Assembly (NCBI GenBank): GCA_903873295.1
Contig: CAIQNV010000088.1
Span: forward strand, 1 to 49,340
DNA from: an uncultured Elusimicrobia bacterium
GTDB taxonomy: Bacteria; Elusimicrobiota; Elusimicrobia; Elusimicrobiales; UBA9959
Direction: 5' to 3'
Length of the DNA: 49,340 nucleotides
Shown piece by piece: positions 16,420 through 49,340 of the stretch. The position numbers were made by a program, and so were the translations under genes. The notes below the pieces were generated by a model, which ran no database searches, was not told the DNA's origin, and saw only the letters and a list, made by a program, of their open reading frames with translations. Within the stretch, counting starts at the first letter, position 1; each line of letters opens with the position of its first letter.

Positions 16420-16529
16420 GGGTCGGGCATGGGGTTGCTCTGGAGCCGCTTTGCGGAGGGGGGCCCCGCTTCGGGGGGAACCACGCAAGGGTTCCTGCGC
16501 GGCGGAATGGGCAACCCCATGACCGACCC
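16420..16529. repeat. Palindromic intergenic repeat, type A, complete copy
   Basis: Outer arms 16420-16438 and 16511-16529 pair over 19 positions with one mismatch. The enclosed core has GCCGC/GCGGC, a CCCCG-CTT-CGGGG hairpin and a GGAACC/GGTTCC hairpin with an ACGCAAG loop. Bases 16431-16515 match 49256-49340 at 80 of 85 positions with no gap. It fills most of the 260-base gap between the divergent rhodanese and glycosyltransferase genes. Confidence 0.85.
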
Positions 16530-16631
16530 GGACTCAAGCTAAACCCGAAAGCACTGAAAACATAAGCGGTCTTTATTTTCGGCTCACGGGAAGGCGCGGC
16601 GGAGTTTTTTGTATTATATAGCTCCACGATC

Positions 16632-18344
16632 ATGAGCAAAAAAATCAGGTTCCCCGCTATCCTTGCCGCCGCCGCGCTGGCCTTCCATCTTTTCGCGGGG
16701 TTTTCTTTTATCCGCTCCGCCGCGGCCACCTACGACGAGCCTGTCCATCTCTCCAGCGGCTATTCCTACCTTTATACCGGGCGCTACGTGATGAATATCA
16801 TGGACCACCCGCCCTTTTCCGAGATGCTCTCGGCCCTGCCGCTGCTGGCGCTGAAGCCACTGGCTTTTGCCGGCCACCCGTATTTCGCGGATTTCATGCC
16901 CTACCATTACGGCGATCTTTTTCTTTATCAGAATTCAATTTCGCCGGAGCGCCTGCTTAATACCGCGCGCGTTTTTACTTTCGTGAGCTGGACGGCGCTG
17001 TTCGCCTGGTTCATCTGGCTTTTCGCTTCGCGCCTGGAATCAGCGGCGGCCGCCGCGCTCAGCCTGGCCATTTTCTGTTTCATGCCGGTTTTCATCTCGA
17101 ACGACGCGCTTATAAGCACGGACGCCGCCGCGGCTGTGTTTTATTTCGGCTCTTTTGCGCTGGGCTGGCTTTTTACTTCGCAGAAAACGGCCGGGGAGGA
17201 GGGAAAACGCGCCCTGAAAACCGAAGCCGGCGGCGGCGGGCTGCGGCTCCGGGCGGCGCTGGCGGGCGCGGTTTCCGGCCTGGCGCTGGTTTCCAAGTTC
17301 AGCATGTTCATCGTCCCGCCTATGGTGGCGGCCTTCTGGATAGCGGACAATCTGCTCCGGCCCCGGTTGAAGTTCTCAAAGCTGGCGGGCTATCTTCTGC
17401 TTTACTTCGCCGCCTGCCTGCTGGTGGTGGCGCTTGTCTACAGGTTCAACCTGGCCCTTTACTGGGACGGCCTGTCCGCCACCCTGAGCCGGCTGGATAA
17501 CGGCCGCTCGTCTTTTGTTATGGGCCGCTACACGCTTAAGGGCGTATGGTGGTATTTCCCGGCCGCGCTGGCCGTTAAAACCCCGCTCCTGGCCCTGCTC
17601 GGCGCGCTGGGGGGGCTGTGGCTGGTCTTCAGGAATTTCCGCAGGGATTATTTGTGGCTTATCCTTCCGCCCGCTGTTTTTTTCGCGGTCTCGCTGACGG
17701 CCAAGGTGCAGATAGGCTACCGGCATATAATGCCGGTGATGCCTTTTGTCGCCGTGCTGGCCGGCCTGGCGCTGGCCCGCCTGCTTGAGCTGAAAAAGGG
17801 CGCCTGGCTCGCGGCCGCCCTGCTCGCGCTTAACGCCGCGTCGGTCGCGCGCGCGCATCCGCATTATCTCGCGTATTTTAACGAGCCGGCCGGCGGGCCC
17901 TCCGGCGGCTACAAGCTTTTCGTGGATTCCAATCTCGACTGGGGCCAGGAGGTGAAGGGGCTGGCCGACTATTTGAAAAGCAGAGGTAACCCGCCGGTGA
18001 TCTTCTCCTACTTCGGGACGGCGAGGCCGGAAAGCCGCGGCATTGATTATCTTCCCCTGGGCATTATATCCAACGTTGAAATGAAAGGGAGCGGGGCGCA
18101 GGTCTGCGGCATGAAGGAGATCCTGCTGGCGGTTTCGGCCACCAATCTGCAGGGCACCTATTACCCCGACAAAGGAACCTTTTCCTGGCTGAAGGCCCGC
18201 GAGCCTGTTTTTACGGCGGGCTATTCAATTTTTGTGTATAATCTTTCTTCAGACAAGGATGGGCTTGGAAAACTGGCCGCCCTCTTCGACCGGGAAGGCC
18301 GCAACTCCGAGGCGGACTGCCTCTACGCGCGCGCCGGCAAATAA
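16632..18344 (+). CDS. GT-C family membrane glycosyltransferase (PMT/ArnT-like)
   Basis: A 570-residue polytopic protein with roughly ten transmembrane helices. The first external loop holds TYDEPVHL (Asp35-Glu36) and MDHPPF (Asp58-His59), the acidic and His-Pro-Pro motifs of GT39/GT83-like lipid-phosphate-sugar-dependent glycosyltransferases. A soluble C-terminal domain with DSNLDWGQ and SYFGTARPES follows. It probably moves a sugar from a polyprenyl-phosphate carrier to a lipid or protein on the outer face of the inner membrane; donor and acceptor are unknown. A TPR protein gene follows after 18 bases and may work with it. Confidence 0.82.
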   Translation: MSKKIRFPAILAAAALAFHLFAGFSFIRSAAATYDEPVHLSSGYSYLYTGRYVMNIMDHPPFSEMLSALPLLALKPLAFAGHPYFADFMPYHYGDLFLYQNSISPERLLNTARVFTFVSWTALFAWFIWLFASRLESAAAAALSLAIFCFMPVFISNDALISTDAAAAVFYFGSFALGWLFTSQKTAGEEGKRALKTEAGGGGLRLRAALAGAVSGLALVSKFSMFIVPPMVAAFWIADNLLRPRLKFSKLAGYLLLYFAACLLVVALVYRFNLALYWDGLSATLSRLDNGRSSFVMGRYTLKGVWWYFPAALAVKTPLLALLGALGGLWLVFRNFRRDYLWLILPPAVFFAVSLTAKVQIGYRHIMPVMPFVAVLAGLALARLLELKKGAWLAAALLALNAASVARAHPHYLAYFNEPAGGPSGGYKLFVDSNLDWGQEVKGLADYLKSRGNPPVIFSYFGTARPESRGIDYLPLGIISNVEMKGSGAQVCGMKEILLAVSATNLQGTYYPDKGTFSWLKAREPVFTAGYSIFVYNLSSDKDGLGKLAALFDREGRNSEADCLYARAGK

Positions 18345-18362
18345 AGCGGGTATCTTAAACAG

Positions 18363-19163
18363 ATGAACAGAAGAATAATATCGGGAGTTATCATTCTCGC
18401 CGCGGCGGGGATGATCTATACCGCTTCCAGCCTTTTTACGAGCTACAAGAAGAAAAGCTGTCTGGAAAAAGAAGGCTCGCGGGCGATAGAGGCCTGTACA
18501 TATATTATAAGCGGACGCGCGTCCGGTTCCAAGGGAAGGTATCTGGTCAGAAGGGCGGAGCTTCTGGAAAAAGAGAAGAGATGGGACGAGCTCCTCTCAG
18601 ACCTTAACGCGATAGTCGCTTTAAAAGGCTCGGAGCAGGCCCGGCCCGAATGGGTGCTCGCCGCCTATGAAGCGCTGGGTAAAATTTACGCGAAAAGAGG
18701 CAATACCGCTGAAGTGAAGAAATACCTTGAGCTCGCCACGCTGAGCGGCAGCAAAGACCTGGAAATTTATGTTTCCCTGGCCGAGGCTTATATCGAGGAT
18801 AAAAAATTCCAGGAGGCTTTAAGCCTGCTTGAGATCGCCGGCGGCCTTGGCAAGGCAAAAAAACATCCGTATTACAACGCGCTGGCCTACTCCTATGAGG
18901 GGCTTAGTGATTCTAATAAGGCCTACGATGCCTTAAAGACCGGCCTTAGCGTTCCCGCTCCGCGCCCCGTCCTCGCCGCAACCTCAAAGCACCTTGGCCT
19001 TGTCTGCTTCGACCTGCAGCGGTACAGAGAAGCCGAAATGTACCTGGGTTACACTCTCAGGGTCGGGCTGGACTGCCCCGAGTGCGTCCTGCTGCTGACT
19101 ACCATACGCGGAGCCCTCGAGCCGCCCGAGCCCGTCAGCCGGCCTAAAAAGACCCGCAAGTAG
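18363..19163 (+). CDS. Membrane-anchored TPR-repeat protein
   Basis: A 266-residue protein with one N-terminal transmembrane helix (~5-26) and a mostly helical remainder. Several tetratricopeptide-like helix pairs can be seen, for example WVLAAYEALGKIYAKRG (~95-111), EIYVSLAEAYIEDKKFQEAL (~134-153), and the pair around NALAYSYEGLSDSNKAYDAL. TPR arrays bind protein partners. Two cysteines (CPEC) near the C-terminus may be structural. It directly follows the glycosyltransferase, so a scaffolding role in the same envelope process is plausible but unproven. Confidence 0.75.
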   Translation: MNRRIISGVIILAAAGMIYTASSLFTSYKKKSCLEKEGSRAIEACTYIISGRASGSKGRYLVRRAELLEKEKRWDELLSDLNAIVALKGSEQARPEWVLAAYEALGKIYAKRGNTAEVKKYLELATLSGSKDLEIYVSLAEAYIEDKKFQEALSLLEIAGGLGKAKKHPYYNALAYSYEGLSDSNKAYDALKTGLSVPAPRPVLAATSKHLGLVCFDLQRYREAEMYLGYTLRVGLDCPECVLLLTTIRGALEPPEPVSRPKKTRK

Positions 19164-19183
19164 CCGCGCTTAGGAGCCCTCCG

Positions 19184-19222
19184 ACATTTTCATTCTAAAA
19201 TATATATTTTCAAATGAAATGT
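19184..19222. other. AT-rich extended palindrome, possible terminator
   Basis: ACATTTTCATT (19184-19194) pairs with AATGAAATGT (19213-19222) with one bulge, and AAAATATATATTTT (19197-19210) is a perfect 14-base palindrome inside it. Next to it, TTTTAGACTAAAA (19233-19245) is another palindrome between two GGCCGGTTT copies. It follows the TPR gene by 20 bases and could end transcription. The rest of the 253-base gap to the TolC-like gene shows no ORF and no convincing promoter. Confidence 0.45.
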
Positions 19223-19416
19223 TCAGGCCGGTTTTAGACTAAAAGGCCGGTTTATGCCCGCCAAAACAGCTAAAAGCGGAGTTTTCCTTCCTGGCATAAT
19301 AATTTCTCTGTTGCCGGCAAGCGGCTATATTTACCGCGATTCGGCTTATATTGTAAACTTTATTTATAGCCAACATCCCCGGCAGCGGCTTAACTGTCTT
19401 CGTCCGATTGGCAAAT

Positions 19417-20724
19417 ATGAAAAATAAAACTATTCTCCGGCTTTGCGCGGCAGCGCTGCTTTCGGCGGCGCCGTCCGCCCGGGTTTCAGCGGAGCCTTTT
19501 ACCCCTAAAGCCTATATTAAGACGGTCTTTGACGCGTCCCTCTCGCTGCGCAAGGCCGAGGAGAGCTTTAAACAGGCGGAGAATTCCTATAAAGCCGCGG
19601 TTCTGGACGCGGCCCTTCCGTCTTTTTCCTTCAGTATGTCCGATAGCTTTTACGACGACCAGGACAGGAGTCTGCGCCTTAAACAGGCAGAGGTCTCCTC
19701 CAGCCTGTCCGCCTCCTGGAACCTTTACGATTCGGCCTCCAGCCCGGTGCGCAGGATAAAAATAGCCAGGCTGGATTATGAGTCGGCCCGGCTTTCCCTG
19801 TTGATCGCCAGGCAAAACGAGGCCGTGAAGGCGCTTAACCGGTTTTACGCGCTTTATTCCGCGCAGCGGCGCATAGGCACGGCCCAGATAAATCTGGCCT
19901 CGCGCGAGCGCCAGTACAAGGACACTAACGAGCAGTTCGAATCCGGCACCAGGAGCCGCATCGAGGTGACGCAGAGCGAGGGCGACAAGCTGCAGAGCGA
20001 GCTCGCGCTGGCGCAGGCGGAGACGGCGGAGCGCAAGGCGCTGATGGCCTTTAATGAGCTTATCAACGCCGAGCCGGAAGTCCAGCAGGCGGTGGAGGTA
20101 AGTACGCTGCCGGCGGACATAAAACTGCCACTGCCCAAAGAGGATGCCGCGAAAGCGCTGGAAAACAACTTCAGCCTGCGCGGGCAGAAGCTCTCTCTGG
20201 AAAAAACCAGGCTTTCCAGCCGCTCCGGCATCCTCGCAAATTATCCCCGGCTTAAGCTGGACGCGGCCTGGCGGAAGACGGCGCTGGGGATACTCGGCAC
20301 GCAGGGCGGCTCCGGGAACGGCAACCCCGCCTACGGCCTTGGCGCTTCCTTAAGTTTTCCCTTTGGCTTCCTGGGCGTTCAGAATTCCCTCGAAACAAGC
20401 GTTCTCGAGGCGGAGCTCAGGTCCGCCGAGCTGGAGATAGCAAATTCGGCGCGCGCGCTTAAAACGAGCGTGCTGTCGGCGCAGAAAGATATCGAGCTGC
20501 AGGTAAAATCCCGTCAGCTGCTGGAATTTCAGGTGAAGGCTCAGAAGGATACCATGGATAACCTGCTTACGGAATACTCTCTGGGCGGAGCGTCTTTCCT
20601 CCAGCTGGACAGCTCGCAAACCAAGCTCCTGGATTCCAGCAACAGCCAGATCACCGCGGTGACCGACCTGGACCTGGCGCTGGCCGACTACAAGGCGCTG
20701 CTGGGCGAGAAAATCTGGGAGTAA
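19417..20724 (+). CDS. TolC-family outer membrane efflux protein
   Basis: A 435-residue outer membrane channel protein. ATG 19417 begins a signal peptide (MKNKTILRLCAAALL...) with a probable cut after RVSA; the in-frame TTG at 19408 is less likely, and no strong ribosome-binding site is visible for either. Long amphipathic coiled-coil helices typical of the two OEP repeats are visible at about 35-75, 130-205, 250-270 and 320-430. It should form the trimeric exit duct for the HlyD/MacB-like inner-membrane pump encoded immediately downstream. Confidence 0.88.
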   Translation: MKNKTILRLCAAALLSAAPSARVSAEPFTPKAYIKTVFDASLSLRKAEESFKQAENSYKAAVLDAALPSFSFSMSDSFYDDQDRSLRLKQAEVSSSLSASWNLYDSASSPVRRIKIARLDYESARLSLLIARQNEAVKALNRFYALYSAQRRIGTAQINLASRERQYKDTNEQFESGTRSRIEVTQSEGDKLQSELALAQAETAERKALMAFNELINAEPEVQQAVEVSTLPADIKLPLPKEDAAKALENNFSLRGQKLSLEKTRLSSRSGILANYPRLKLDAAWRKTALGILGTQGGSGNGNPAYGLGASLSFPFGFLGVQNSLETSVLEAELRSAELEIANSARALKTSVLSAQKDIELQVKSRQLLEFQVKAQKDTMDNLLTEYSLGGASFLQLDSSQTKLLDSSNSQITAVTDLDLALADYKALLGEKIWE

Positions 20725-20738
20725 CAGGATAATATACC

Positions 20739-21659
20739 ATGAAAAAAATCGTTAAACCCGCTCTGTGGCTCGTGGTGCTGGCGCTTTTGAGCGCGCTGGG
20801 TTTTGCCGGCTATACGCGCTATAAAAAGATGCTGCTGCGCGAGGATCTTTCGGATTTTATAAGGACGGTCAGCAAAGGCGACCTCAAGCTGGACATGCAG
20901 GAGTCGGGCGAACTGGTATCGCGCGACACGGTGGATATTTTTCCGCCCAGCAAGGGCTTTATCGTCGAGATAATAAAGAAAGAGGGCGAGTACGCGGAGA
21001 AGAACGAGAGGATCATGATGTTCAAGGGCGGCGAGCGCATAGATTCCACCCAGTACGTCCCGGTCACGATAGTCGCGCCGCGCGCCGGCCTGCTGACCCG
21101 CTGCGTAAGCACCAGGGGCGGCAGCGACGCCGAAGTGCGCGAGGGCAAGCGCGTGGACAGTTCCGCCTCCTGCGTGGCCCGCGTAGTGGATATGAACATG
21201 CTGGCGGTAAACCTGCAGATCAGCGAGATAGACATCTTCAAGCTCAAGCTGGGCATGCCGGTCTCCATCACCTTCACCTCCATTCCCGGCGAGAAATTCT
21301 CCGGCAAGATCGACGTGATAGCGCCCATGGCCGAGAGCAAGTCGAGCAACTGGGGGGGCGGCGGCACCAAAGTTTTCCGCGTCGTCATAAACATAGACAA
21401 GCCCAGCCAGAAGATGCGCGTAGGGATGAGCGCGGTGGTCACGGCCAATATGAAGGCGAAAAAAAACGTGCTGAAGGCCCCCATAGAGGCGCTTTTTCAG
21501 GAGGGCCTCAACCATTATGTCTACCGTCAGCTCCAGGGCTACGAAGCCGAGAAGCTGCAGGTGTTCCCCGGCCTGCGGTCGGAGGCCGAGGTGGAGCTGG
21601 CCGGCCCCCTCAAGCCCGGCGACAAGCTGTTTACCGCGGCGCCGGAGAGTCTTAAATGA
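20739..21659 (+). CDS. HlyD/MacA-type periplasmic adaptor
   Basis: A 306-residue membrane fusion protein with an N-terminal transmembrane anchor (~5-24). A first biotinyl-lipoyl half (VDIFPPSKGFIVEIIKKEG, ~65-83) is followed, after only a short stretch, by a second half (VTIVAPRAGLLTRCV) and then b-barrel and membrane-proximal domains. The a-helical hairpin normally found between the lipoyl halves is very short, unlike classical MacA. It should link the MacB-like pump with the TolC-like channel. Its stop overlaps the ATPase start (ATGA). Confidence 0.87.
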   Translation: MKKIVKPALWLVVLALLSALGFAGYTRYKKMLLREDLSDFIRTVSKGDLKLDMQESGELVSRDTVDIFPPSKGFIVEIIKKEGEYAEKNERIMMFKGGERIDSTQYVPVTIVAPRAGLLTRCVSTRGGSDAEVREGKRVDSSASCVARVVDMNMLAVNLQISEIDIFKLKLGMPVSITFTSIPGEKFSGKIDVIAPMAESKSSNWGGGGTKVFRVVINIDKPSQKMRVGMSAVVTANMKAKKNVLKAPIEALFQEGLNHYVYRQLQGYEAEKLQVFPGLRSEAEVELAGPLKPGDKLFTAAPESLK

Positions 21660-22321
21660 GCATAAGCTGCTTTGAGCTTACCAAAGTTTACGACGGAGGC
21701 AAGGCCGGGTGGCCGGCCCTGCGCGGGCTTTCCTTTGAAATAAAAATGGGGGAGTTCGTAGCCGTTACCGGGCCTTCCGGCTGCGGCAAGTCCACGCTGC
21801 TCAATATAATCGGTCTCCTGGACGAGCCCACCGGCGGCAGATACGCCCTTAACGGGCGCGATGTGCTTACGCTTTCCGACCGGGAGCGCTCCGACACGCG
21901 CCGCGACGAGATAGGCTTTATTTTCCAGTCTTTTCACCTGTTGAACAGGCTTTCTTCGGTAGAGAACGTCGGCCTCCCTCTGATGTATGCGGGGGCGGAC
22001 GGCGCCGAGAGGAAGGAGCGCGCCGTAGCTCTTCTGCGCAAGGTGGGGCTGCACGGAAAGGAAAAGAAGATCCCGCTGGAGCTCTCCGGCGGCGAGCGGC
22101 AGCGCGTGGCCATAGCCCGGGCGCTGGCGAATTCCCCGAAGCTCATACTGGCCGACGAGCCTACCGGCAACCTGGATTCCGCCTCCAGTAAAGAAATAAT
22201 GCAGCTGCTGGTCGACCTTAACGCGGAGGGCATTACCGTGATCATGGTGACCCACGATAAAGAGCTGGCCGCGCGGGCCGGGCGCAATATCAGGATGCGT
22301 GACGGGAGGATCGAACAATGA
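21656..22321 (+). CDS. MacB/LolD-type ABC transporter ATPase
   Basis: A 221-residue cytoplasmic ABC ATPase. Walker A is GPSGCGKST (~39-47), the Q-loop is IFQSFHLLNRL, the signature is LSGGERQRVAIARAL and Walker B is LILADEPTGNLDS, all of the MacB/LolD/FtsE class. It is split from its permease, which follows with a 4-base ATGA overlap. In MacB systems ATP hydrolysis drives a mechanical transmission motion that expels periplasmic substrate through the TolC channel. Confidence 0.94.
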   Translation: MSISCFELTKVYDGGKAGWPALRGLSFEIKMGEFVAVTGPSGCGKSTLLNIIGLLDEPTGGRYALNGRDVLTLSDRERSDTRRDEIGFIFQSFHLLNRLSSVENVGLPLMYAGADGAERKERAVALLRKVGLHGKEKKIPLELSGGERQRVAIARALANSPKLILADEPTGNLDSASSKEIMQLLVDLNAEGITVIMVTHDKELAARAGRNIRMRDGRIEQ

Positions 22322-23613
22322 GAGCCCTCTTTAACGCCGTTAAAACGGGCTTCACCGAGATCTGGGCGCACAAGACGCGCTCGGTGCTAAGTTTCCTCGC
22401 TATCGCGGCGGGGTCGGTGGTTTTTATAGACGCCTTTTCCGCCATCTTCGCCACCTATGAGCGGATCGAGAAGCAGAAGGAAGTTTCAGGTATGGCCAGG
22501 CTGAAGATCTCCCAGAATTACAGCCAGACCTACTCTTCCCCGGACGATTATGTGCCGCCGCCGGTGATCACCTACGAGGACGTGCTGAGGCTGCGCGAGA
22601 AACTGCCCGGCTTTTATATGGTCTCGCCGGAGGGCCGCGACTGGCGCAACGTGCTGGAATACGGCGAGCACCGCGTGACCACCAGCGTGATGGGCGTGAC
22701 GCCGGAATGGACCAAGCGGGATTTCATCTACAAGCTCAGAGGCCGCTTCCTGGACTGGCATGACGTGGAAAATAAGCTGAGGGTCTGCGTGCTGGTGAAA
22801 AAGGCGGCCCCTCCGCCCGGCAACAGCTTCAATAAGAGCATGATGAAAAAATATAATTTTACCGGCGGCTTCGACACGCTGGTGGCCCATAACGACCTGC
22901 TCGGGAAGACGGTCAGTATAGACGGCTTCACCTTCACGGTCATCGGGATACTGGAGGAGCTGCCGTATTCCAGGCGCCCGGAGACGATGACGGGCTATTC
23001 CCAGGAGTATAAAGTGCTGGCGCCCGTCACCACGCTGATCCATTATAATTTCATTGGTTCCTACCAGACCCTCGACGTAAGCATAGACACCGGCAGCGAG
23101 CAGAATTTCGAGGAGTCGCTCAGGAAGATCAATAACTTCTTAAAGATACGCTTCGGCGACGGGGACTTTTTTATAGTGGAGAACCAGCTGGAGCTTATCC
23201 GGGAGCGGATAGCCGCCAGCATGAAATCGGCCCTGGTCACGATCTCGCTGGGGATGCTGGCTTTCCTCGCCGGGGGCATCGGCATAATGAACGTCACGCT
23301 GGCGACCGTATTCGCGCGCACCAGGGAGATAGGCGTGCGCCGCGCCATAGGCGCCAGCCGGCGGGATATAATGCTGCAGTTCATAGTCGAGGCCGTCATG
23401 CTGGGGCTTATCGGCGGCGTGCTGGGCTCCGCCCTCGGCTACCTGTGGGGCGTCCCGGTTAAAGTTATGCTGGGCATGGGCGGCAGCCCGATAAAAGCCT
23501 GGATGCCTTTAGTCTCGGTTTTGATAGCAGCGTTCACGGCGTTCGTTTTCGCCATTTACCCGGCCTGGGTGGCCGCCGGCCTAAAGCCCGCCGACGCGCT
23601 GCGGGCCGAATGA
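22318..23613 (+). CDS. MacB-like FtsX-family ABC permease
   Basis: A 431-residue inner-membrane protein with an N-terminal helix (~20-42), a large periplasmic MacB core domain (~45-295) and three C-terminal helices making up the FtsX domain (~305-425). The TREIGVRRAIGASRRDIMLQF motif region after the second helix is typical of MacB/LolC coupling segments. With the separate ATPase it forms a tripartite exporter. The substrate could be a lipid, lipopeptide, antibiotic or small protein; nothing in the sequence decides this. Confidence 0.93.
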   Translation: MRALFNAVKTGFTEIWAHKTRSVLSFLAIAAGSVVFIDAFSAIFATYERIEKQKEVSGMARLKISQNYSQTYSSPDDYVPPPVITYEDVLRLREKLPGFYMVSPEGRDWRNVLEYGEHRVTTSVMGVTPEWTKRDFIYKLRGRFLDWHDVENKLRVCVLVKKAAPPPGNSFNKSMMKKYNFTGGFDTLVAHNDLLGKTVSIDGFTFTVIGILEELPYSRRPETMTGYSQEYKVLAPVTTLIHYNFIGSYQTLDVSIDTGSEQNFEESLRKINNFLKIRFGDGDFFIVENQLELIRERIAASMKSALVTISLGMLAFLAGGIGIMNVTLATVFARTREIGVRRAIGASRRDIMLQFIVEAVMLGLIGGVLGSALGYLWGVPVKVMLGMGGSPIKAWMPLVSVLIAAFTAFVFAIYPAWVAAGLKPADALRAE

Positions 23614-24332: not shown

Positions 24333-24345
24333 AGCCGGGAAATTG

Positions 24346-24377: not shown

Positions 24378-24392
24378 ATGCCGCTCCGTATT

Positions 24393-30800: not shown

Positions 30801-31115
30801 AGACCGCGAGAAGCCCAGTCGGGGCCTACCGCGGGGGCAGGAACGAAAAACACGCTCGTCCACACCGTGGCCTCGCTCGGTATTCGCCCGCCGGGCTGTG
30901 CAACCGGCGGGCTCAACGACGGTTTTTCTTATCCTGCCACCGCGGTCTCCCCTCCATTAATTTCTGCGGAGGCGGCTTTCGGAGGGGTGGCCGGGGTTTT
31001 GTTTTGCGCACCCTTTGCGGAAGGGGGGGCCCCGCCTGGCGGGGGGAAACCGACGCAAGGGTTTCCATCTTCCAGGGTGCGCGGGGCAAAACCCCGGACA
31101 GGCCCCCGACTGGGC
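30801..31115. repeat. Compound palindromic element, type B, between purC and purS
   Basis: This holds most of the gene-free stretch 30742-31172. Closing arms 30813-30827 and 31100-31115 pair with one bulged G. Inside are two branches. The left one pairs 30828-30851 with 30922-30946 and is capped by CCCGCCGG/CCGGCGGG; AGACCGCG at 30801-30808 could also pair with 30941-30948. The right one pairs 30991-31014 with 31074-31097 and encloses the family core. Bases 31017-31095 are identical to 37483-37561. No credible ORF; function unknown. Confidence 0.8.
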
Positions 31116-37390: not shown

Positions 37391-37607
37391 TATGGGCGGC
37401 CGGACGGCCAGACAGCTTGAGAAAAGTCGATCGCAGCGAATTTCTTGGAGGGATGGCAGGGGTTTTGCCCCTCGCACCCTTGGCGGAAGGGGGGGCCCCG
37501 CCTGGCGGGGGGAAACCGACGCAAGGGTTTCCATCTTCCAGGGTGCGCGGGGCAAAACCCCTGACAGCCCTCCCCGAGCCGACTGCCTAGCGGACCCGGG
37601 CTCAATA
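37391..37607. repeat. Palindromic element, type B, between purD and purM
   Basis: Arms 37457-37480 and 37540-37563 pair over 24 positions with one mismatch, and GGAGGGATGG (37447-37456) partly pairs with 37564-37573. The enclosed core matches the purC-purS copy exactly over 79 bases (37483-37561). The left flank (TATGGGCGGCCGG) resembles the left flank of the 49.2-kb copy, and GACCCGGGCTCAA near 37594-37606 resembles the right flank of the 16.4-kb copy. It fills most of the gap; no ORF supported. Confidence 0.8.
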
Positions 37608-41895: not shown

Positions 41896-41919
41896 GCAGA
41901 TATTGTAGCAAAACCCGGT

Positions 41920-41949
41920 TTTACTTGCCCGGGCGATTTGTGTTAAAAT
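41920..41949 (+). promoter_or_regulatory. Candidate promoter for purB-purA
   Basis: TTTACT (41920-41925), an 18-base spacer and TAAAAT (41944-41949) lie in the divergent gap between the kinase and purB. This would give a leader of about 110 bases ahead of purB, in which I see no recognisable riboswitch. Confidence 0.4.
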
Positions 41950-42065
41950 TAGTCGTAAGACCCTGCTCCGGGCAGTTCCTGGCCGACCTGCGGGCATGCG
42001 CCGATACGGCGCCTGCACAGGTATTACGAACGCGGACGCGGGTATTTTTTTGTGGAGGCGACTAT

Positions 42066-43472
42066 ATGCCGGTTCGGCGCAATATAAACGCGGTAAGCCC
42101 CCTGGACGGCAGATATGCCGGCAAACTGGGGAGCCTGAGCCGCGTCTCCGGCGAAGGCGCGCTGGCGCGTTATCGGGCGCTGGTGGAGTGCCGCTACCTT
42201 CAGAAGCTCTGCGCCACGCCCGGCGTGAAGATAAGGAGGCTGAAGCCCGCCGAGGAGGCCATCCTTCAGAAACTGCCCCTTCTTTCCGACAGGGACGTCC
42301 TTGGGATAATAGCCATAGAGGAGACCGGCTCCGCCCGGGTCCCGCCCACAAGACACGACGTGAAAGCGGTGGAATATTTCCTCAAAGAGAAGCTCCGCCG
42401 CACCTCGCTGCGCGACATAACCGAGTTCGTGCACTTTGCCCTTACGTCCGAGGATGTCAACAACATCTCCTACGCGCTGATGCTCAGGGACTGCCTGAAC
42501 GCCGAAGTGCTCCCGGCGCTGGCCGAGATACTGGGCGCCCTGGACGCCATGGCGGTAAAATACGCCGCGGCCCCTCTGCTGGCCCGCACGCACGGCCAGC
42601 CCGCTGTTCCCACCACCTTCGGCAAGGAATTCAGGGTTTTTCACGCGCGCCTCTCGCGGCAAGCCGCCCAGCTCAAGGCCGCCCGCATCTGCGCCAAGCT
42701 GAACGGCGCTTCTGGCAATTATAATGCCCACGCGGCGGCCTTCCCCGGCGCCGATTGGCGCAGGTTCTCAAAAGAATTTATAGAAAGCTTCAACTCCGGC
42801 GCCGGGCCCGCGCTGGAATACAACCCGCTCACCACCCAGATAGAGCCCCATGACAGCTACGCTGAGCTGTTCGATAATCTGCGCCGCGCCAACACCATAC
42901 TCCTGGCGTTCTGTCAGGATATGTGGCGCTATATCTCCGCCGGGCTGGTGGCCCAGAAGGCGGTAGCCGGTGAGGTCGGTTCCTCGACCATGCCGCAGAA
43001 AGTTAACCCTATACATTTTGAGAACGCCGAGGGGAATCTGGGCCTGGCCAACGCGCTGCTGGGCTTTTTCTCCTCCAAGCTGCCCGTTTCCCGGCTGCAG
43101 CGGGACCTCTCAGATTCCACCGTCGAGCGCAATTTCGGAGCGGCCCTGGGGCACGGGCTGTCGGCGTATAAGTCCGTGCTTGCCGGCCTCTCCCGGGTCG
43201 CCGTTGACGAAGCCGCGGCCCGCGCGGAGCTGGAGCTGCACCCGGAGGTGCTGGCGGAGGGCATACAGACCATCCTGAGGCGGGAAGGCGAAACCGGCCC
43301 TTACGAGCTGCTTAGCAGGTTTACCCGGGGCCGCGCCGTGACCGCCGCCGGGCTGCGAGGCTTTATAGACGGGCTTAAGCTCAAGCCGGCGGTAAAGGCG
43401 GAACTCAAACGGCTCTCGCCCCTTAACTATACGGGGCTTTCGGAGAAACTCGCGAAAACAAAGGAGTCCTAA
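42066..43472 (+). CDS. purB: Adenylosuccinate lyase
   Basis: Removes fumarate from SAICAR and from adenylosuccinate, so it serves both the IMP pathway and AMP formation. I use ATG 42066, preceded by GGAGG, since homology begins immediately with NINAVSPLDGRYAGK, as in the E. coli-type enzyme; upstream in-frame sequence is unconvincing. The 468-residue protein has the fumarase-superfamily signature SSTMPQKVNP near 304-313 and the TSEDVNN and ARTHGQPAVPTT motifs carrying catalytic histidines. It abuts purA with no spacer. Confidence 0.95.
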   Translation: MPVRRNINAVSPLDGRYAGKLGSLSRVSGEGALARYRALVECRYLQKLCATPGVKIRRLKPAEEAILQKLPLLSDRDVLGIIAIEETGSARVPPTRHDVKAVEYFLKEKLRRTSLRDITEFVHFALTSEDVNNISYALMLRDCLNAEVLPALAEILGALDAMAVKYAAAPLLARTHGQPAVPTTFGKEFRVFHARLSRQAAQLKAARICAKLNGASGNYNAHAAAFPGADWRRFSKEFIESFNSGAGPALEYNPLTTQIEPHDSYAELFDNLRRANTILLAFCQDMWRYISAGLVAQKAVAGEVGSSTMPQKVNPIHFENAEGNLGLANALLGFFSSKLPVSRLQRDLSDSTVERNFGAALGHGLSAYKSVLAGLSRVAVDEAAARAELELHPEVLAEGIQTILRREGETGPYELLSRFTRGRAVTAAGLRGFIDGLKLKPAVKAELKRLSPLNYTGLSEKLAKTKES

Positions 43473-44492
43473 ATGCCAGTTGATATCGTTGTAGGCGGTC
43501 AGGCCGGTGATGAAGGTAAAGGAAAGATCGCGGCTTACCTGGCGGTAAAGAACAATTACGACTACTCCATAAGGGTGGGCGGGCCCAACGCCGGGCACAC
43601 CATATTTTTCAAAGACAGGATCTATGCGCTCAAAACCATTCCGGGCGCCTTCGTGAGCAGGCGCACCAAACTCGTGCTGGGCGCCGGTACTTACATAATA
43701 ACCGATTGGCTTGAGAAGGAAATAGCGCTGACCGGAGTGGAAAACCGCCTGATAATAGACCCGCACGCCGTGATCATAGAGCAGCGCCATACCGGGGCCG
43801 AGCGCGCCGACGCCCGCCTGATGGGGAAGATAGGCAGCGTGGGCACCGGCCTGGGTGCCGCGGTCCGCGACAGGGTGGATCGCAAGAAGCTGCGCTTCGC
43901 CAAGGACGAGCCGCGCCTGAAGCGGTACGTGAAGGATGTGCCGGAGCTCCTGAACAAGGCCCTGGCCAAAGGTTCCCGCATGCTGCTGGAGGGTACGCAG
44001 GGGATGAAGCTCTCGATGCTGCACGGCGAGTACCCGTTCGTCACCTCGCGCGATACCACCGCCTCCACCTTTATGGGAGAGGCGGGCCTGGGGCCGAAAT
44101 ACGCCGGAGAGGTCTACGCGATATTCAAGCCCTATGTCACGCGCGTGGGGCCGGGAATGGTAGCTAAAGAGGTGAAGGACAAAAAGACGCTTTCCAGGTA
44201 CCATACGCAGGGCCGCGAGGTGGGCAGCGTCAGCGGCCGCCTGCGCCGGGTGGGGGAGTTCGAGATGGACGTGGCGCGCCGGGCCGTCAGCATAAACTCG
44301 GCCACCAGGCTGGCAGTGACCCATATAGATCTGCTGGAGGGGGCTGATGTCTCGCGCGGGATAAAGAGCTTTACCGGAGAGGCAAAAAAATTCCTTGCCA
44401 CATTGGAGAAGGTCTGCGCCGTCTACCCTTATCCTAAAGTGGAGCTTATCTCCTACGGCCCGGGCTTGTTCGATGTGCTGGACCTGAAATAG
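43473..44492 (+). CDS. purA: Adenylosuccinate synthetase, short archaeal-type form
   Basis: GTP-dependent conversion of IMP and aspartate to adenylosuccinate, the first step to AMP. The 339-residue protein is about 90 residues shorter than typical bacterial PurA (~430) and matches the length and layout I recall for Pyrococcus-type enzymes: it lacks a central insertion after residue ~160 and a C-terminal segment. Catalytic Asp13 and His42 are present in GQAGDEGKGK and NAGHT, with GTQGMKLS and SGRLRRVGEFE further on. The guanine-recognition motif usually written TKLD is THID here. It begins right after the purB stop, with AAGGAG upstream. Confidence 0.93.
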   Translation: MPVDIVVGGQAGDEGKGKIAAYLAVKNNYDYSIRVGGPNAGHTIFFKDRIYALKTIPGAFVSRRTKLVLGAGTYIITDWLEKEIALTGVENRLIIDPHAVIIEQRHTGAERADARLMGKIGSVGTGLGAAVRDRVDRKKLRFAKDEPRLKRYVKDVPELLNKALAKGSRMLLEGTQGMKLSMLHGEYPFVTSRDTTASTFMGEAGLGPKYAGEVYAIFKPYVTRVGPGMVAKEVKDKKTLSRYHTQGREVGSVSGRLRRVGEFEMDVARRAVSINSATRLAVTHIDLLEGADVSRGIKSFTGEAKKFLATLEKVCAVYPYPKVELISYGPGLFDVLDLK

Positions 44493-44531
44493 ACTATCAG
44501 CCGGCTTGTATTCCCGGCCCGCGCCTTCCGA

Positions 44532-44560
44532 TTGACGCTCTTTATGGGAAATGATATTTT
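44532..44560 (+). promoter_or_regulatory. Sigma70-type promoter of the liv operon
   Basis: TTGACG (44532-44537), a 17-base spacer and TATTTT (44555-44560) lie 32 bases before the livK start codon. Together with the ~100-base gap after purA this marks a new transcription unit. Confidence 0.7.
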
Positions 44561-44592
44561 ATCTGTGCATTCCGTCGGTTTAAGGAGAAGAA

Positions 44593-45756
44593 ATGAAAAG
44601 CAAAAACATCATGGCGATCCTCGCGTTCTTTTTCGTGCTGGCCGGTTGCGGTAAGCCGAAGACCGATACGGTGCGCATCGGCGTTATCGCCGAAATAACC
44701 GGGGCGATCCCGGCCGTGGGCGCCTCCTGCAAGAACGGCGCGCAGATGGCCGCCGGAGAAATAAACGACGCCGGCGGAATAGATATCGGCGGAGTAAAAA
44801 AGAAAATAGAGCTTTTCATCGAGGACAGCGCCTCCAAGCCCGAGCAGGCCGCGGCGGCGGCGCAGAAGCTTATAGCCCGCTCGGAAGTGCTCGCCATCGT
44901 GGGCCCGAATTCAAGCAGCAACGCCCTGCCCGCGGCGGAGATCGCGGAAAAGTCCGCCACGGTGCTTATGACCCCCTGGTCCACGGACCCCAAGACCACT
45001 ATCGACTCCAAGACCGGACAGGCCAAGAAATTCGTCTTCAGGGCCTGCTTTACCGACACTTTCGAGGGAAAGGTGCTGGGCGGCTTCGCCCGCAAAGAGC
45101 TCAAAGCGGCCAAAGTGGCGGTTCTCTACGATGTGTCCTCCGACGTGCTCAAGATCCAGGCAGAGATGTTCAAGAAAAGCTTCGAGGAGAACGGCGGCAG
45201 GATCGTGGCGCTGGAAACCTACACCAAGGGCGATAAGGATTTTTCCGCCCAGTTCACCAAGATAAAGAACGCCAGGCCCGACCTGATCTTCCTTCCCAGC
45301 TATTATACCGACGTTCCTCTGCAGGTGCAGCAGGCGCGCCGCCTCGGGATCAAAGCCCCGTTCCTCGGCTCCGACGCCTGGAGCAGCGAGGACCTGGTTA
45401 AAATGTGCGGCGCGGACTGCGAAGGCTCCTACCTTCTGAACCATTACTCGCCCGGCACCACTAATCCCGTTACGCAGAAGTTCATCGCGGATTACAAGGC
45501 CCGGTTCGGCGGCTCCACCCCCGACGATGTGGCCGCGCTGGCCTATGACGCTTTCGGAGTTCTCGCCAAAGCCGTCGCCAGGGCAGGAACGCTCGACAGG
45601 GCCGCGGTCAGGGACGCGCTCTCCCAGATCCCCGCTTATCCCGGAGTTACGGGCGTGATCAAATACAGCGCCGATTCCGGCGACCCCGTCAAGGGCGCGG
45701 TGATCCTACAGATAAAGAACGGCGGCTTCTCCTGGTTCGCCGACGCGCAGCCCTAG
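44593..45756 (+). CDS. livK: Branched-chain amino-acid-type ABC transporter, substrate-binding lipoprotein
   Basis: A 387-residue periplasmic binding protein of the type I fold. The signal peptide ends in the lipobox LAGC (Cys at ~19), so it is tethered to the inner membrane. The mature part opens TVRIGVIAEITGAIPAVG and contains AIVGPNSSSNALPAAEIAEK, the amino acid a-group binding site region. The family takes up leucine/isoleucine/valine but also other amino acids, amides and aromatics, so the ligand is open. An AAGGAG site lies seven bases upstream. The four other transporter genes follow directly. Confidence 0.93.
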   Translation: MKSKNIMAILAFFFVLAGCGKPKTDTVRIGVIAEITGAIPAVGASCKNGAQMAAGEINDAGGIDIGGVKKKIELFIEDSASKPEQAAAAAQKLIARSEVLAIVGPNSSSNALPAAEIAEKSATVLMTPWSTDPKTTIDSKTGQAKKFVFRACFTDTFEGKVLGGFARKELKAAKVAVLYDVSSDVLKIQAEMFKKSFEENGGRIVALETYTKGDKDFSAQFTKIKNARPDLIFLPSYYTDVPLQVQQARRLGIKAPFLGSDAWSSEDLVKMCGADCEGSYLLNHYSPGTTNPVTQKFIADYKARFGGSTPDDVAALAYDAFGVLAKAVARAGTLDRAAVRDALSQIPAYPGVTGVIKYSADSGDPVKGAVILQIKNGGFSWFADAQP

Positions 45757-45807
45757 CCGCTGAAAGTCTTTAATGAGAATTTATTCCTTCCTTTCCGGAC
45801 GTAAGCG

Positions 45808-46683
45808 GTGATATATTTTTTTCAGCAGGCCCTGAACGCCGTGCAGCTGGGCAGCGTATACGCCCTCATCGCCCTCGGCTATACGATGGTCTACGGCGTG
45901 CTTTCTATGATAAATTTCGCCCACGGCGATTTTTTCATGGTCGGGGCTTTCCTCTGTTTCGTCGGGGCCGCCTTGCTGCACCTGCCCTTCGTGCCCGTCC
46001 TGCTGCTGTCGATGACGGGCGTCACCCTGCTCGGCGTCGCCACGGAGCGCATCGCCTACCGCCCTTTGCGGAACGCGCCCAAGGTCTCCGCGATAATAAC
46101 TTCCCTCGGGGTAGGGATCTTCCTGGAGAACTTTACGCTGGGGCTGAGCCCCTATCCGAAGTACATCCCGCAGCTCCTTCCTTCCTTCACCTATACCGTA
46201 GGCGGCGTGTCGGTCTCCACTTTCCAGCTCGCCACGATCGGCATTTCTTTCCTGCTGATGTTCGCGCTTCATCTTATAGTCAATAAAACCAAAGCCGGCC
46301 TCGCGATGAGGGCGATCTCCGCGGACCGCGCCGTCGTTCCTCTCATGGGCATTCCTGTGGATAAAATAATCGCCCTCACTTTCGCCCTGGGCTCCGGGCT
46401 CGGCGGAGCGGCCGGCGTGATGTACGCCATGGCCTATCCCGTTATCGATCCGTATATCGGCATCCTCGTCGGGTGGAAGGCTTTCATCTCCGCCGTCATC
46501 GGCGGCATCGGGAACATCCGCGGAGCGGTGCTCGGCGCCTATATCCTCGGGATGGTCGAGATCATGACGGCAGCCTTTCTGCCTTCGACTTACCGCGACC
46601 TGGTCACGTTCTCCCTGCTGCTCGCGCTGCTTATCTACCGCCCGCGGGGACTGCTCGGGCGCGCGGAGATCCAGAAGGTATGA
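45808..46683 (+). CDS. livH: Branched-chain amino-acid-type ABC transporter permease LivH
   Basis: A 291-residue inner-membrane permease with about eight helices. It starts at GTG 45808 (MIYFFQQALNAVQLGSVYALIALGYTMVYG in translation is the typical LivH opening in part: GSVYALIALGYTMVYG). The NFAHGDFFMVGAF motif and the late VIGGIGNIRGAVLGAYILG stretch are hallmarks of LivH. It overlaps livM by four bases (ATGA). A 51-base gap separates it from livK and no strong ribosome-binding site is seen. Confidence 0.94.
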   Translation: MIYFFQQALNAVQLGSVYALIALGYTMVYGVLSMINFAHGDFFMVGAFLCFVGAALLHLPFVPVLLLSMTGVTLLGVATERIAYRPLRNAPKVSAIITSLGVGIFLENFTLGLSPYPKYIPQLLPSFTYTVGGVSVSTFQLATIGISFLLMFALHLIVNKTKAGLAMRAISADRAVVPLMGIPVDKIIALTFALGSGLGGAAGVMYAMAYPVIDPYIGILVGWKAFISAVIGGIGNIRGAVLGAYILGMVEIMTAAFLPSTYRDLVTFSLLLALLIYRPRGLLGRAEIQKV

Positions 46684-47672
46684 GCGGGCTCATTGAATTC
46701 CTGCGGGCGCTCCGCCCCGCCGAGAAATATCTGTCGGCCAGGAGCGTGGCCGCGGCCGGCTTCGTCCTGGCCCTCGCCATTCCGCGCTTCAACCTGCTGG
46801 ACAATTATCTCCAACTTCTTCTCATGCTGATCGGCATCAACATCATACTGACGCTGAGCCTGAACCTTATAAACGGCTATATGGGCGAATTCTCGGTGGG
46901 GCACGCTGGGTTCATGGCGGCGGGCGCTTACGTCTCCTCCATCCTCAGCGTTAGAATACTCGCCGCCCATTCCCCGGTCTGGGTCTTCCCGTGTGCGGTG
47001 CTGGCGGGCGGCCTGGTCGCCGGCGCCGTGGGCTTGATCGTAGCCGTGCCGTCTTTTAAAACGCGCGGCGATTATCTGGCCATCGTGACCCTCGCCTTCA
47101 GCATGATCGTGAAATCCGTGATCGAGAACATCGACGCCGTCGGCGGGCCGCGCGGCTTCCTGGGCATGGATAAGCTGACGAACCTGCCATGGGTGTTTTT
47201 CTGGGTCGTCGTCACGATCTGGATCACGAGGAACTTCATCTATTCCCGCTTCGGGCGCGGGATCCTGGCGGTGCGCGAGGACGAGATCGCGGCGGACCTC
47301 ACCGGCGTCAACACCAGGAACGTGAAAATGCTGGCCTTTGTCGTCTCCTCTTTTTTCGCGGGGATAGCCGGCGGGCTCTACGCCCACCTTATCCAGTACA
47401 TCAGCCCCGGCTCTTTCGATATCGTAAAATCCACCGAGATGCTGGTCATGGTCTATCTCGGCGGGGTGGGCTCCATCGCGGGCTCCATCCTCGGCGCCGC
47501 CTCATACACCGTAATGCTGGAGGCGCTGCGCCCCCTGGGGATCTGGCGCATGGCGGTGATGCCCCTGCTTCTTGTCCTGCTGATGATCTTCCGCCCGAGG
47601 GGAATCATGGGCTTTCGGGAAGCCCGGTGGCTGGTCCCTTTCTTGGAGCGGGACGGCGGTGCTAAGAAATGA
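46680..47672 (+). CDS. livM: Branched-chain amino-acid-type ABC transporter permease LivM
   Basis: A 330-residue second permease. ATG 46680 overlaps the livH stop; the same frame is open upstream to 46473 but that would cover livH. LSLNLINGYMGEFSVGHAGFM (about 53-73) and the YLGGVGSIAGSILGA stretch near the C-terminus are LivM motifs. About nine helices are visible. It overlaps livG by four bases. Confidence 0.94.
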   Translation: MSGLIEFLRALRPAEKYLSARSVAAAGFVLALAIPRFNLLDNYLQLLLMLIGINIILTLSLNLINGYMGEFSVGHAGFMAAGAYVSSILSVRILAAHSPVWVFPCAVLAGGLVAGAVGLIVAVPSFKTRGDYLAIVTLAFSMIVKSVIENIDAVGGPRGFLGMDKLTNLPWVFFWVVVTIWITRNFIYSRFGRGILAVREDEIAADLTGVNTRNVKMLAFVVSSFFAGIAGGLYAHLIQYISPGSFDIVKSTEMLVMVYLGGVGSIAGSILGAASYTVMLEALRPLGIWRMAVMPLLLVLLMIFRPRGIMGFREARWLVPFLERDGGAKK

Positions 47673-48478
47673 CCAACGCTGAAATAAGCGGGCTTCCCCG
47701 GCCGGGCGCCGCCCCGGCGGCACTTGAGCTGATCAACGTTACCCATCATTTCGGCGGGCTTCGCGCTCTTTGCGGAGTTAATTTTACCGTGGCGCCCGGC
47801 GAGCTGGCCGGGATCATAGGGCCTAACGGGGCGGGAAAGACCACGGTCTTCAACCTTATAAGCGGGGTCTATAAACCTTCGAAAGGGAACATCCTTTTTC
47901 ACGGCGGCGATATCACCGGGCTGCGTTCTTCCGCGATCACCGAGCGCGGCATAGCCCGGACCTTCCAGAATATCCGCCTGTTCAAAGAGCTCACCGTCCT
48001 GGATAATGTCAGGGCGGCCCATTACGCCCGCATGCGGGTCAATCCCCTCGAAGCGCTGTTCCACTCGGGCAGGCACGGCAGCGAGGAAAAGAGGGTGACG
48101 GCGGAAAGCCGGGACCTGCTGGACAGGTTCGGCCTCGGCGCGAGCGCAGGCGAGCTTTCCAGGAACCTTCCCTACGGGCTCCAGCGCCGTCTTGAAATAC
48201 TGCGGGCCGCCGCCACCGGTCCGTCCCTTATCCTGCTGGACGAGCCCGCGGCGGGAATGCATCCGGGCGAAGTGGAGCAACTGATGTCTTTTATCCTGAA
48301 GCTCAAGGAAGAGCTTTCTCTGACCGTGCTTCTCATCGAACATCAGATGAAGCTCGTTATGGGGATGTGTTCGCATGTGGTAGTGCTGGATTTCGGTATG
48401 GTTATCGCCGACGGGGAGGCCGGGCAGGTCAGGTCCGACCCCGGGGTCAGGAAAGCCTACATGGGGAGCGCGAAATGA
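47669..48478 (+). CDS. livG: Branched-chain amino-acid-type ABC transporter ATPase LivG
   Basis: A 269-residue ATPase. An N-terminal extension of ~18 residues precedes the ABC core. Walker A is GPNGAGKTT, the Q-loop region is RTFQNIRLFKELTVLDNV, and Walker B is LILLDEPAAGMHP, the typical LivG form. The signature region reads LPYGLQRRLEI, where LSYGxQRRLEI is usual. The C-terminal IEHQMKLVMGMC segment and the end KAYMG match the family. It overlaps livF by four bases. Confidence 0.94.
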   Translation: MTNAEISGLPRPGAAPAALELINVTHHFGGLRALCGVNFTVAPGELAGIIGPNGAGKTTVFNLISGVYKPSKGNILFHGGDITGLRSSAITERGIARTFQNIRLFKELTVLDNVRAAHYARMRVNPLEALFHSGRHGSEEKRVTAESRDLLDRFGLGASAGELSRNLPYGLQRRLEILRAAATGPSLILLDEPAAGMHPGEVEQLMSFILKLKEELSLTVLLIEHQMKLVMGMCSHVVVLDFGMVIADGEAGQVRSDPGVRKAYMGSAK

Positions 48479-49185
48479 CGCCTCTGCTTGAAGTCAGCGG
48501 GCTTACGGTCAATTACGGCGTGATAGCGGCCGTGCGCTCCGTTTCCTTCGAAGTCCGGAGCGGCGAGATAGTAGTGCTGCTCGGCGCGAACGGGGCGGGA
48601 AAAACCTCCATCCTAAAGGCGGTTTCAGGGCTTATCCCCGGCGGAGGTCTGGTGCGCTTCGAGGGCGCCGACCTGGCCGCTGTCCCCGCGCACGAAAGAG
48701 TGGGCAGGGGGATCGCGCATGTTCCCGAGGGAAGGCGGATCTTTTACAATCTCAGCGTCAGGGAAAATCTGCTGCTGGGCGGTTGGGTGCAGGCCTCAAA
48801 GGCCGGAGCGGCGCAGGAGCTCGACCGCGTGCTCGCGCTGTTTCCCCGCCTCGGGGAAAGGCTTTCCCAGGCCGGCGGCACGCTTTCCGGCGGAGAGCAG
48901 CAGATGCTGGCCGTCGGGCGCGCGCTCATGAGCCGTCCGAAACTGCTGCTGCTAGATGAGCCTTCCATGGGGCTCTCCCCGAAGCTGGTCGAATCCATCT
49001 TCACGATGCTTTCCGATTTTCACAAAAGCGGGATGACCCTTCTGGTGGTGGAGCAGAACGCTGCTATGGCTCTGACTCTGGCCTCCCGCGCCTACGTCCT
49101 GGAGGCGGGGGAAATAAAGCTCAGCGGCGCGGCTGCCGAGCTTCGCGACAATCCGCTGGTCCGCCGGGCATATCTCGGGGAATGA
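48475..49185 (+). CDS. livF: Branched-chain amino-acid-type ABC transporter ATPase LivF
   Basis: The second ATPase, 236 residues, starting at ATG 48475 overlapping the livG stop; an earlier in-frame start at 48367 would lie inside livG. Walker A is GANGAGKTS, the signature is LSGGEQQMLAVGRAL, Walker B is LLLLDEPSMGLSP, and VEQNAAMAL gives the H-loop region in its LivF form. It ends the operon; a palindromic repeat follows within 60 bases. Confidence 0.95.
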   Translation: MTPLLEVSGLTVNYGVIAAVRSVSFEVRSGEIVVLLGANGAGKTSILKAVSGLIPGGGLVRFEGADLAAVPAHERVGRGIAHVPEGRRIFYNLSVRENLLLGGWVQASKAGAAQELDRVLALFPRLGERLSQAGGTLSGGEQQMLAVGRALMSRPKLLLLDEPSMGLSPKLVESIFTMLSDFHKSGMTLLVVEQNAAMALTLASRAYVLEAGEIKLSGAAAELRDNPLVRRAYLGE

Positions 49186-49241
49186 GCCTCAGCTCTCCAT
49201 AACAACTTAATCGTATTGAGATTCCCGGCTTTTAGCCCGGG

Positions 49242-49340
49242 TATGGGCCGGCCACGGGGTTGCTCTGGAGCCGCTTTGGGGAGGGGGGCCCCGCTGGGGG
49301 GGGAACCGCGCAACGGTTCCTGCGCGGCGGAATGGGCAAC
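49242..49340. repeat. Palindromic intergenic repeat, type A, cut by the window end
   Basis: Bases 49256-49340 match 16431-16515 at 80 of 85 positions without a gap. The left flank differs (TATGGGCCGGCCACGG). The GGAACC/GGTTCC hairpin is kept and extended by a G-C pair, with a CGCAA loop. The right outer arm lies beyond the window. The preceding 56 bases after livF show no gene. Confidence 0.8.

Follow-up and report, generated by a model that had tools for sequence, protein, structure and literature searches.

Why should a single bacterial contig carry, at four intergenic places, GC-rich palindromes built round the same pair of hairpins, and what keeps those hairpins paired while their letters change? 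The question is raised by contig CAIQNV010000088.1 of assembly GCA_903873295.1, from an uncultured Elusimicrobia bacterium, which was analysed over its full 49,340 nucleotides (the window; it is the entire contig C88 of a 3.49-Mb draft genome, here the source genome). An initial annotation had described the four elements, knew of no family matching them and proposed that their folded form is what is selected or copied. The analysis given here makes it likely that the elements are miniature inverted-repeat transposable elements (MITEs) of Elusimicrobia with a conserved core fold on the + strand, which probably works as a small RNA, or else as one DNA strand made during copying. The interior thus points to a putative working RNA inside a jumping element. 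What is new is a conserved, covarying and strand-specific core common to several transposon shells across a class.

The fold of the core

The shared two-hairpin core was found at all four places as annotated. A covariance model (R1), built from 17 source-genome copies, matches all four elements on the + strand; two of them (30989-31102 and 37455-37568) are training copies, so that only the first and the fourth are independent matches. The two type B copies of the window also give weak R1 matches on the − strand, as is to be expected of palindromes. The family is by no means restricted to these four copies. The source genome holds 34 DNA matches to a type B copy, at least 40 to a type A copy (the first 40 scored of 133 candidates) and 74 matches to R1, seven of which are the reverse strand of another match, leaving about 67 places. 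Several contigs of this genome start or stop within a copy, and the elements therefore seem to limit short-read assembly. Within a set of 41 genomes that includes the source genome, R1 matches were found in 24 of the 25 genomes of the same genus (all but G011) and in none of the 16 from other genera of the order. Across a sample of the phylum a match at E <=1e-4 was obtained in 36 of 294 genomes and 12 of 90 genera, and the core was present in all 12 genomes outside the genus whose loci were inspected; by kinship codes the copies, those of the source genus included, fall into nine genera from five families of the class. Ninety-nine pattern loci came from named genomes, mostly Elusimicrobia or Elusimicrobiales metagenome-assembled genomes (MAGs), with some named only as ‘bacterium’ and three from other groups (L157, L172 and L204), none of which gave an R1 match. 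Viral contigs were considered as carriers and rejected, the six pattern matches among them (none matched by R1) being taken as chance. No Rfam family matched at gathering level anywhere in the window, a permissive search with one copy returned only hairpin models far below their thresholds, and a literature search, largely without subscription papers, found no paper on these elements.

The core consists of a long outer stem, a single-stranded stretch in which TAGC, TTGC or TTGG is followed by GGA and a G-run, hairpin 1 with a variable loop and hairpin 2 with a conserved loop. Each of three window copies folds better than expected by chance (z -5.75, -5.43 and -4.18), with none of 200 shuffles folding as well in any case. 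In an alignment of 101 copies (99 distinct rows) 92.5% of cells are paired against 76.1% after shuffling, two-sided changes occur in 33 of 41 pairs against 23.1 in shuffles, and the covariation score is 0.443 against 0.144, while all controls in which the arms were slid drop to 39-56% paired. This alignment was fitted to R1 and so leans towards the structure. The outer stem, with 23 of 23 pairs, contributes the larger part of the compensated changes. The two hairpins of the initial annotation are part of a larger core, whose outer stem it had not stressed, and the mobile unit is longer again.

The mismatches of the outer stem provide a line of evidence that is independent of the model. They were counted in those 128 of 159 copies that have both arms, under a scoring in which G.U was not favoured, and are strikingly one-sided: G.U 149 against A.C 36, G.A 239 against C.T 9 and G.G 34 against C.C 1. 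Copy by copy, G.U exceeds A.C in 76, A.C exceeds G.U in 11 and the two are equal in 41. A tandem A.G/G.A motif contributes to the G.A total; when its columns are removed the aligned set gives G.U 104, G.A 38 and A.C 9. The one-sidedness recurs in other genera (G.U:A.C 69:10, G.A:C.T 119:4 and G.G:C.C 14:3 in 55 copies from 11 genomes; 66 loci were given, and L368, L370, L373 and L382 were left out). As the reverse strand would give the opposite bias, the + strand is the strand that folds, and it is this fold that is selected. The proposal of the initial annotation is borne out to that extent, and neither of the outcomes that it named as telling against the family was seen: copies are numerous in the source genome and its relatives, and covariation surpasses that of the shuffles and of every slid control. 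Since G.U is the best-tolerated mismatch outside the tandem motif, the core may well act as RNA; a single DNA strand made during copying would be the alternative.

Bacterial MITEs are usually viewed as passive elements in which the ends matter and the interior does not. By that standard the copies would be plain palindromic MITEs with a functionless interior, their arms kept alike by palindrome repair at the DNA level (template switching) and not by selection on a fold. The elements are near-palindromic, R1 matches the reverse strand of several copies both in the source genome and in a scan of 100 loci, their orientation relative to neighbouring genes hardly departs from random (47 sense-sense, 35 anti-anti, p 0.22), and derivatives exist that have intact ends and no core, all of which such an explanation would accommodate. 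DNA repair, however, offers no cause for mismatches that fall on one side, and do so again in other genera, nor for core letters that are retained across genera while those of the stems vary. Neither is the three-position switch described below a palindrome correction. We consider it unlikely that the interior is of this passive kind.

The switch links the single-stranded stretch with the loop of hairpin 2. There are two states, TTGC with the loop A-CGCAA-G (state 1) and TTGG with G-CGCAA-C (state 2), and 155 of 159 copies fit one of them at all three positions (5 of 164 having been dropped as regular-expression artefacts). Over a larger set, agreement between the first and last positions holds in 164 of 166 copies, the other two having T. 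Both states occur in all three labelled shell classes, the second in only one of 22 GTAAC copies, and a tree of low resolution implies 23 changes of state. The switch suggests a tertiary contact. A simple pseudoknot between TTGCG and CGCAA was rejected: it fits state 1 and is not kept in state 2 or in other genera, where TAGC stands with CGGGA.

Other parts of the core are more freely exchanged. The loop of hairpin 1 ranges from three bases to a stem longer than 80 and sometimes contains a guest inverted repeat; in some copies an additional hairpin domain follows hairpin 2. The guest repeat, AAAAAGGTGCCAGCCTCCTTTTT and its complement, was seen at L078:1501-1684, L203:1-188 and L305, as if a small element had inserted into another. 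The additional domain, GTGCCGTATCAAAGGGCTATGCCC..AGACGGCC, was seen at L196:4901-5061, L206:3021-3187, L309 and L310, the last two showing compensated stem changes by eye. In two copies from the same MAG, GWC2_64_44 (L173:2931-3132 and L174:1415-1619), hairpin 1 is enlarged by about 90 bases, with a common stem and a different loop sequence.

Ends, target duplications and candidate movers

Beyond what the initial annotation had proposed, related copies prove to be MITEs, with inverted repeats at their ends and target duplications of 8 bp on either side. Copies in genome G006 end in a 14-base terminal inverted repeat, GTAACTACTCAGGT, and in the 15 of 26 given copies whose ends passed (copies scoring below 9 of 14 being dropped) the 8-bp flanks are identical at 0.75 of positions, against 0.31 when shuffled, with a maximum of 0.49; at 6, 7, 9 and 10 bp identity is at background level. 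Genome G200 belongs to another family; its copies end in approximately GTAARGGTTTAGC, with a corresponding 8-bp identity of 0.816 against 0.316 and a shuffled maximum of 0.513 (19 of 20 loci). Seven or eight of the eight flanking bases match in 14 of the 19, and one locus counted as a miss, L391, has an exact duplication by eye. Type A copies of the source genome have terminal inverted repeats resembling GGCGCTTCCGGG, and three of them (L046, L054 and L056) are flanked by exact 8-bp duplications. Terminal repeats are thus seen in G006, G200 and the source type A copies, and a target duplication of fixed length gives a sharp peak over shuffled flanks in the first two. The mobile unit so delimited is about 170 bp long in G006, 132-138 bp in G200 and about 210 bp in the three exact type A copies. 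The elements contain no transposase gene, measure about 132-213 bp and occupy some 67 places in one genome, as is expected of MITEs, and their terminal repeats and 8-bp duplications indicate insertion of double-stranded DNA by a transposase. A fourth end type, CCGTGGGCTGAGGGG, was observed in L112 and L212, where a unit of 119 bp lies in two genomes at what is apparently the same site, with flanks matching at 8/8 and 7/8 positions.

For the type A shell a probable mover is at hand, since its ends are shared with an autonomous element of the ISL3 family. The ISL3 element of G011 (L345:746-2055) is 1310 bp long, has an open frame of 420 residues that matches PF01610, and agrees with the type A end consensus at 23 of 25 and 25 of 25 bases. 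Three source-genome contigs start in ISL3 coding sequence (E 8.8e-7 to 1.6e-6) and then run into the same end, at 24/25. Single type A copies compare with the ISL3 right end at 24/25, 23/23 and 21/22. An ISL3 copy in G042 has an exact 8-bp duplication, which indicates that the family makes duplications of this length here. The ISL3 transposase would then move type A in trans, and another transposase would move the shells ending in GTAA. No autonomous partner was found for the latter. IS66 had become a candidate for the GTAAC shell through its GTAA ends and was rejected, PF03050 being absent from all 32 genomes of the genus that were searched. No pair of G200 ends at the spacing of an insertion sequence was seen when 906297 bases, some two fifths of the genome, were inspected by eye. 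Nor was a partner gene seen beside the copies: the printed clusters of open frames from loci of the genus, read by eye without Pfam, were ordinary genes, orthologues and antisense frames.

In REPIN/RAYT systems many intergenic hairpin elements with a strand-specific structure are found, and a link to a RAYT transposase had been suggested for the window elements. On such an account the copies would be REP-like and moved by a RAYT (Y1_Tnp) that recognises hairpins of one strand; their strand-specific hairpins and many intergenic copies fit it, and Y1_Tnp occurs in 27 of 31 genomes of the genus. Copies and transposase nevertheless occur apart. None of 20 Y1_Tnp loci (one per genome, the source genome excluded) has an R1 match; in the source genome itself five of the six Y1_Tnp contigs lack one and the sixth has matches about 13 kb away; G003, G016 and G023 have 24, 15 and 20 model matches but no Y1_Tnp at threshold, and G011 has three Y1_Tnp but no R1 match. 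The 8-bp duplications also count against a RAYT, as they do not fit single-strand HUH transposition. The suggested link was accordingly dropped, and a RAYT origin must be held very improbable.

Copies in the window and their insertion sites

The window copies are decayed or cut representatives of the family. The hairpin sequences given below were read from the sequence and agree with the initial annotation; gene names were read by eye from open frames. Copy 1, of type A (16420-16529, + strand), has the outer stem GGGTCGG..CCGACCC around the two-hairpin core, with an R1 match at 16425-16527 (50.6 bits). Its hairpin 1 is CCCCG-CTT-CGGGG (16464-16476) and its hairpin 2 GGAACC-ACGCAAG-GGTTCC (16477-16495), in state 1. 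On the right, at 16540-16555 of the + strand, lies a decayed ISL3-like terminal repeat of the type A shell, TAAACCCGAAAGCACT, agreeing with the consensus at 13 of 16 bases; no matching left end was found. A candidate other unit surrounds this copy at 16385-16611 (row L031, without assigned strand), with ends complementary at 12 of 14 positions and 8-bp flanks alike at 7 of 8, which may be chance.

Copy 2, of type B (30989-31102, +; 123.3 bits), comprises outer stem and core and lies between purC-like and purS-like frames, with hairpin 1 as CCCCGC-CTG-GCGGGG (31030-31044) and hairpin 2 as GGAAACC-GACGCAAG-GGTTTCC (31045-31066). The second of the four stretches as first drawn (30801-31115) is a composite, in which this copy stands inside one larger palindrome together with a distinct palindromic repeat at about 30813-30985 (no strand assigned), outside the core family; the stretch was rightly placed, and its bounds need this division. 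Copy 3, also of type B (37455-37568, +; 122.9 bits), lies between purD-like and purM-like frames and has the same hairpin 1 (37496-37510) and hairpin 2 with loop GACGCAAG (37511-37532). The shell ends of copies 2 and 3 could not be fixed. Copy 4, of type A (49245-49340, +; R1 match 49250-49340, 26.4 bits, E 0.0011), is truncated by the end of the contig, which is also that of the window. Its hairpin 1 is CCCC-GCTG-GGGG (49289-49300) and its hairpin 2 GGAACC-GCGCAAC-GGTTCC (49302-49320), in state 2; of its shell only the left arm is present, at about 49218-49241 of the + strand, where the sequence resembles the ISL3 terminal repeat. Elsewhere in the window, 8352-15792 holds a gene cluster resembling, by eye, subunits of xanthine dehydrogenase or a related molybdenum hydroxylase with accessory proteins.

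That copies lie between genes holds for the family at large: 161 of 162 have no overlap of more than 60 bases with a predicted gene, although the predictor was trained on 38 window genes which it recovered, so that this check is not independent. Such sites raise the question of whether the host makes use of the copies as cis-acting RNA parts, for instance as mRNA stabilisers or RNase III sites in the manner of Correia/NEMIS or ERIC repeats, kept by selection after insertion. Two window copies stand between genes of a purine-operon-like cluster, the upstream neighbour is sense in 80 copies and antisense in 51 (p 0.014), and three pairs of copies seem to be orthologues in different genomes, which would fit a role of this kind. 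The sites in the purine operon, however, differ between species. By eye, the purD-purM gap of 19 of 23 relatives contains neither this nor another recognised repeat (L241, among them, has a longer unrecognised gap), L247 holds a degenerate copy without hairpin 1, and three relatives (L258, L259 and L260) carry another palindromic repeat; in G013 and G024 a copy lies directly downstream of purM instead. The one-sided mismatches are, moreover, equally strong in copies sense to their genes (G.U:A.C 50:16) and antisense to them (34:8), from which it follows that host mRNA is not the main keeper of the fold. A slim chance, at best, may be given to the copies being kept as parts of the host. Since the asymmetry is independent of orientation, selection would instead seem to act mainly on the element itself, that is on copies that spread, and the folded core might bind a protein that stabilises the element or helps its expression, copying or spread.

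Two observations on the surroundings of the copies may be added. The repeat at 30813-30985 and those of L258-L260 upstream of purM belong to a second palindromic intergenic family that is sometimes found beside or within copies of the core family. Some type B copies (L285, L287, L299 and L300) lie between the arms of a flanking inverted repeat of about 10-11 bp, as if in a hairpin loop.

Several of our results weigh against the reading of the elements as MITEs with a selected, RNA-like core, and are set out together here. As regards mobility, none of the four window copies has a verified target duplication. The type A group as a whole has an 8-bp identity of 0.569 against a shuffled mean of 0.374 and a maximum of 0.583 (9 of 37 copies, both ends passing with at least 8 of 12), which leaves just the three exact copies as clear evidence. 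For the type B shells no distinct ends emerged; the automatic search picked out 17 of the 161 copies (all types together), and several of these are obviously chance. The ISL3 left end fits less well than the right (22/24 in L054, 11 bases in L056, none reported for L046), the flanks of the L345 insertion sequence in G011 are unlike, and the GTAAC shell is left without a mover, IS66 being absent as described and ISL3 having no match in G006. As regards the core, two derivatives in G006 that have lost it (L307 and L308) keep both terminal repeats and, by eye, exact 8-bp duplications; the core may therefore be dispensable for jumping, unless it was lost afterwards. The copies are related and the mismatch counts not independent, distinct contexts giving G.U against A.C as 97:32, and well-supported branches of the tree leave five of five independent pairs concordant for the switch (p 0.0625). 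Lastly, the pairs L287/L299 and L280/L294 (by flanking sequence and similar genes) and L112/L212 (by a near-identical duplication) look orthologous by eye, which leaves room for selection at the level of the site.

Comparison with known systems

The inner end of the outer stem brings retrons to mind. Among the 55 copies from 11 genomes outside the genus, GGA is preceded by TAGC in 46 and by TAGT in 7, and five more copies (L368, L370, L373, L382 and L390) all have TAGC. A review names TAGC as the priming sequence that retrons most often have at that place (PMC6868368). A likeness may thus be seen to retron non-coding RNAs and to the msDNA-like repeats of Nannocystis exedens (named among the references of PMC6868368), in the outer pairing arms, the hairpins between them and, for the other genera here, a TAGC where the 5' arm ends on the inside. 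The core would on this view be a retron-like RNA with the outer stem as a1/a2, TAGC as priming site and the hairpins as msr/msd, spread as a MITE and served by a reverse transcriptase encoded elsewhere. The window genus, however, has TTGC or TTGG at the site, and a motif search of 2696 open frames from loci of the genus, and of the 906297 bases of G200, recognised no convincing reverse transcriptase, no genome-wide family search having been made; the terminal repeats and 8-bp duplications, furthermore, point to a DNA transposase. For the first two of these reasons the resemblance stays a lead, and that the core is a retron RNA is scarcely to be expected. A wider proposal, of a class-wide mobile RNA module, possibly retron-like and reverse-transcribed from TAGC, that rides different DNA-transposon shells, exchanges peripheral domains and has a fold selected through the element and not through the host, is somewhat easier to entertain, though still a long shot.

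The preferred reading, of MITEs whose core folds on one strand, places the elements close to several known systems without making them identical to any. From REPIN/RAYT systems they differ in having terminal repeats and 8-bp duplications, and none lies beside the Y1_Tnp loci examined. With ISL3 elements they share, in type A, the ends of the resident family and, in three full copies, its 8-bp duplications; type A lacks the transposase gene, and the other shells end differently. ERIC/IRU and RUP are intergenic repeats of 107-127 bp, and RUP is thought to be moved by a resident insertion sequence with matching ends, according to a review (PMC2229807). The mode of movement that we propose for type A and ISL3 is of the same kind, although RUP, as portrayed there, has IS630-like ends at TA sites and the Elusimicrobia elements show duplications of 8 bp and a core that recurs in several shells.

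There is a likeness, too, with the Correia/NEMIS elements of Neisseria, small mobile repeats of about 107-155 bp that are MITE-like and have a folding transcript (PMC2229807). MITEs with folding transcripts are already known (PMC2229807; PMC10969869). The Elusimicrobia elements belong to another phylum and have another sequence, and their multi-hairpin core covaries across genera. In differing shells, and on one strand in either orientation, the fold of their interior is preserved from genus to genus and from family to family, which gives a testable claim, namely that a transposon without a transposase of its own harbours a working RNA. The covariance model can be used for annotating further copies, and the elements suggest why several contigs of these genomes end inside them. 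Set beside Correia/NEMIS, then, these elements share small size, mobility, MITE-like build and a fold, and are set apart by phylum, by sequence and by a covarying core of several hairpins that extends across genera.

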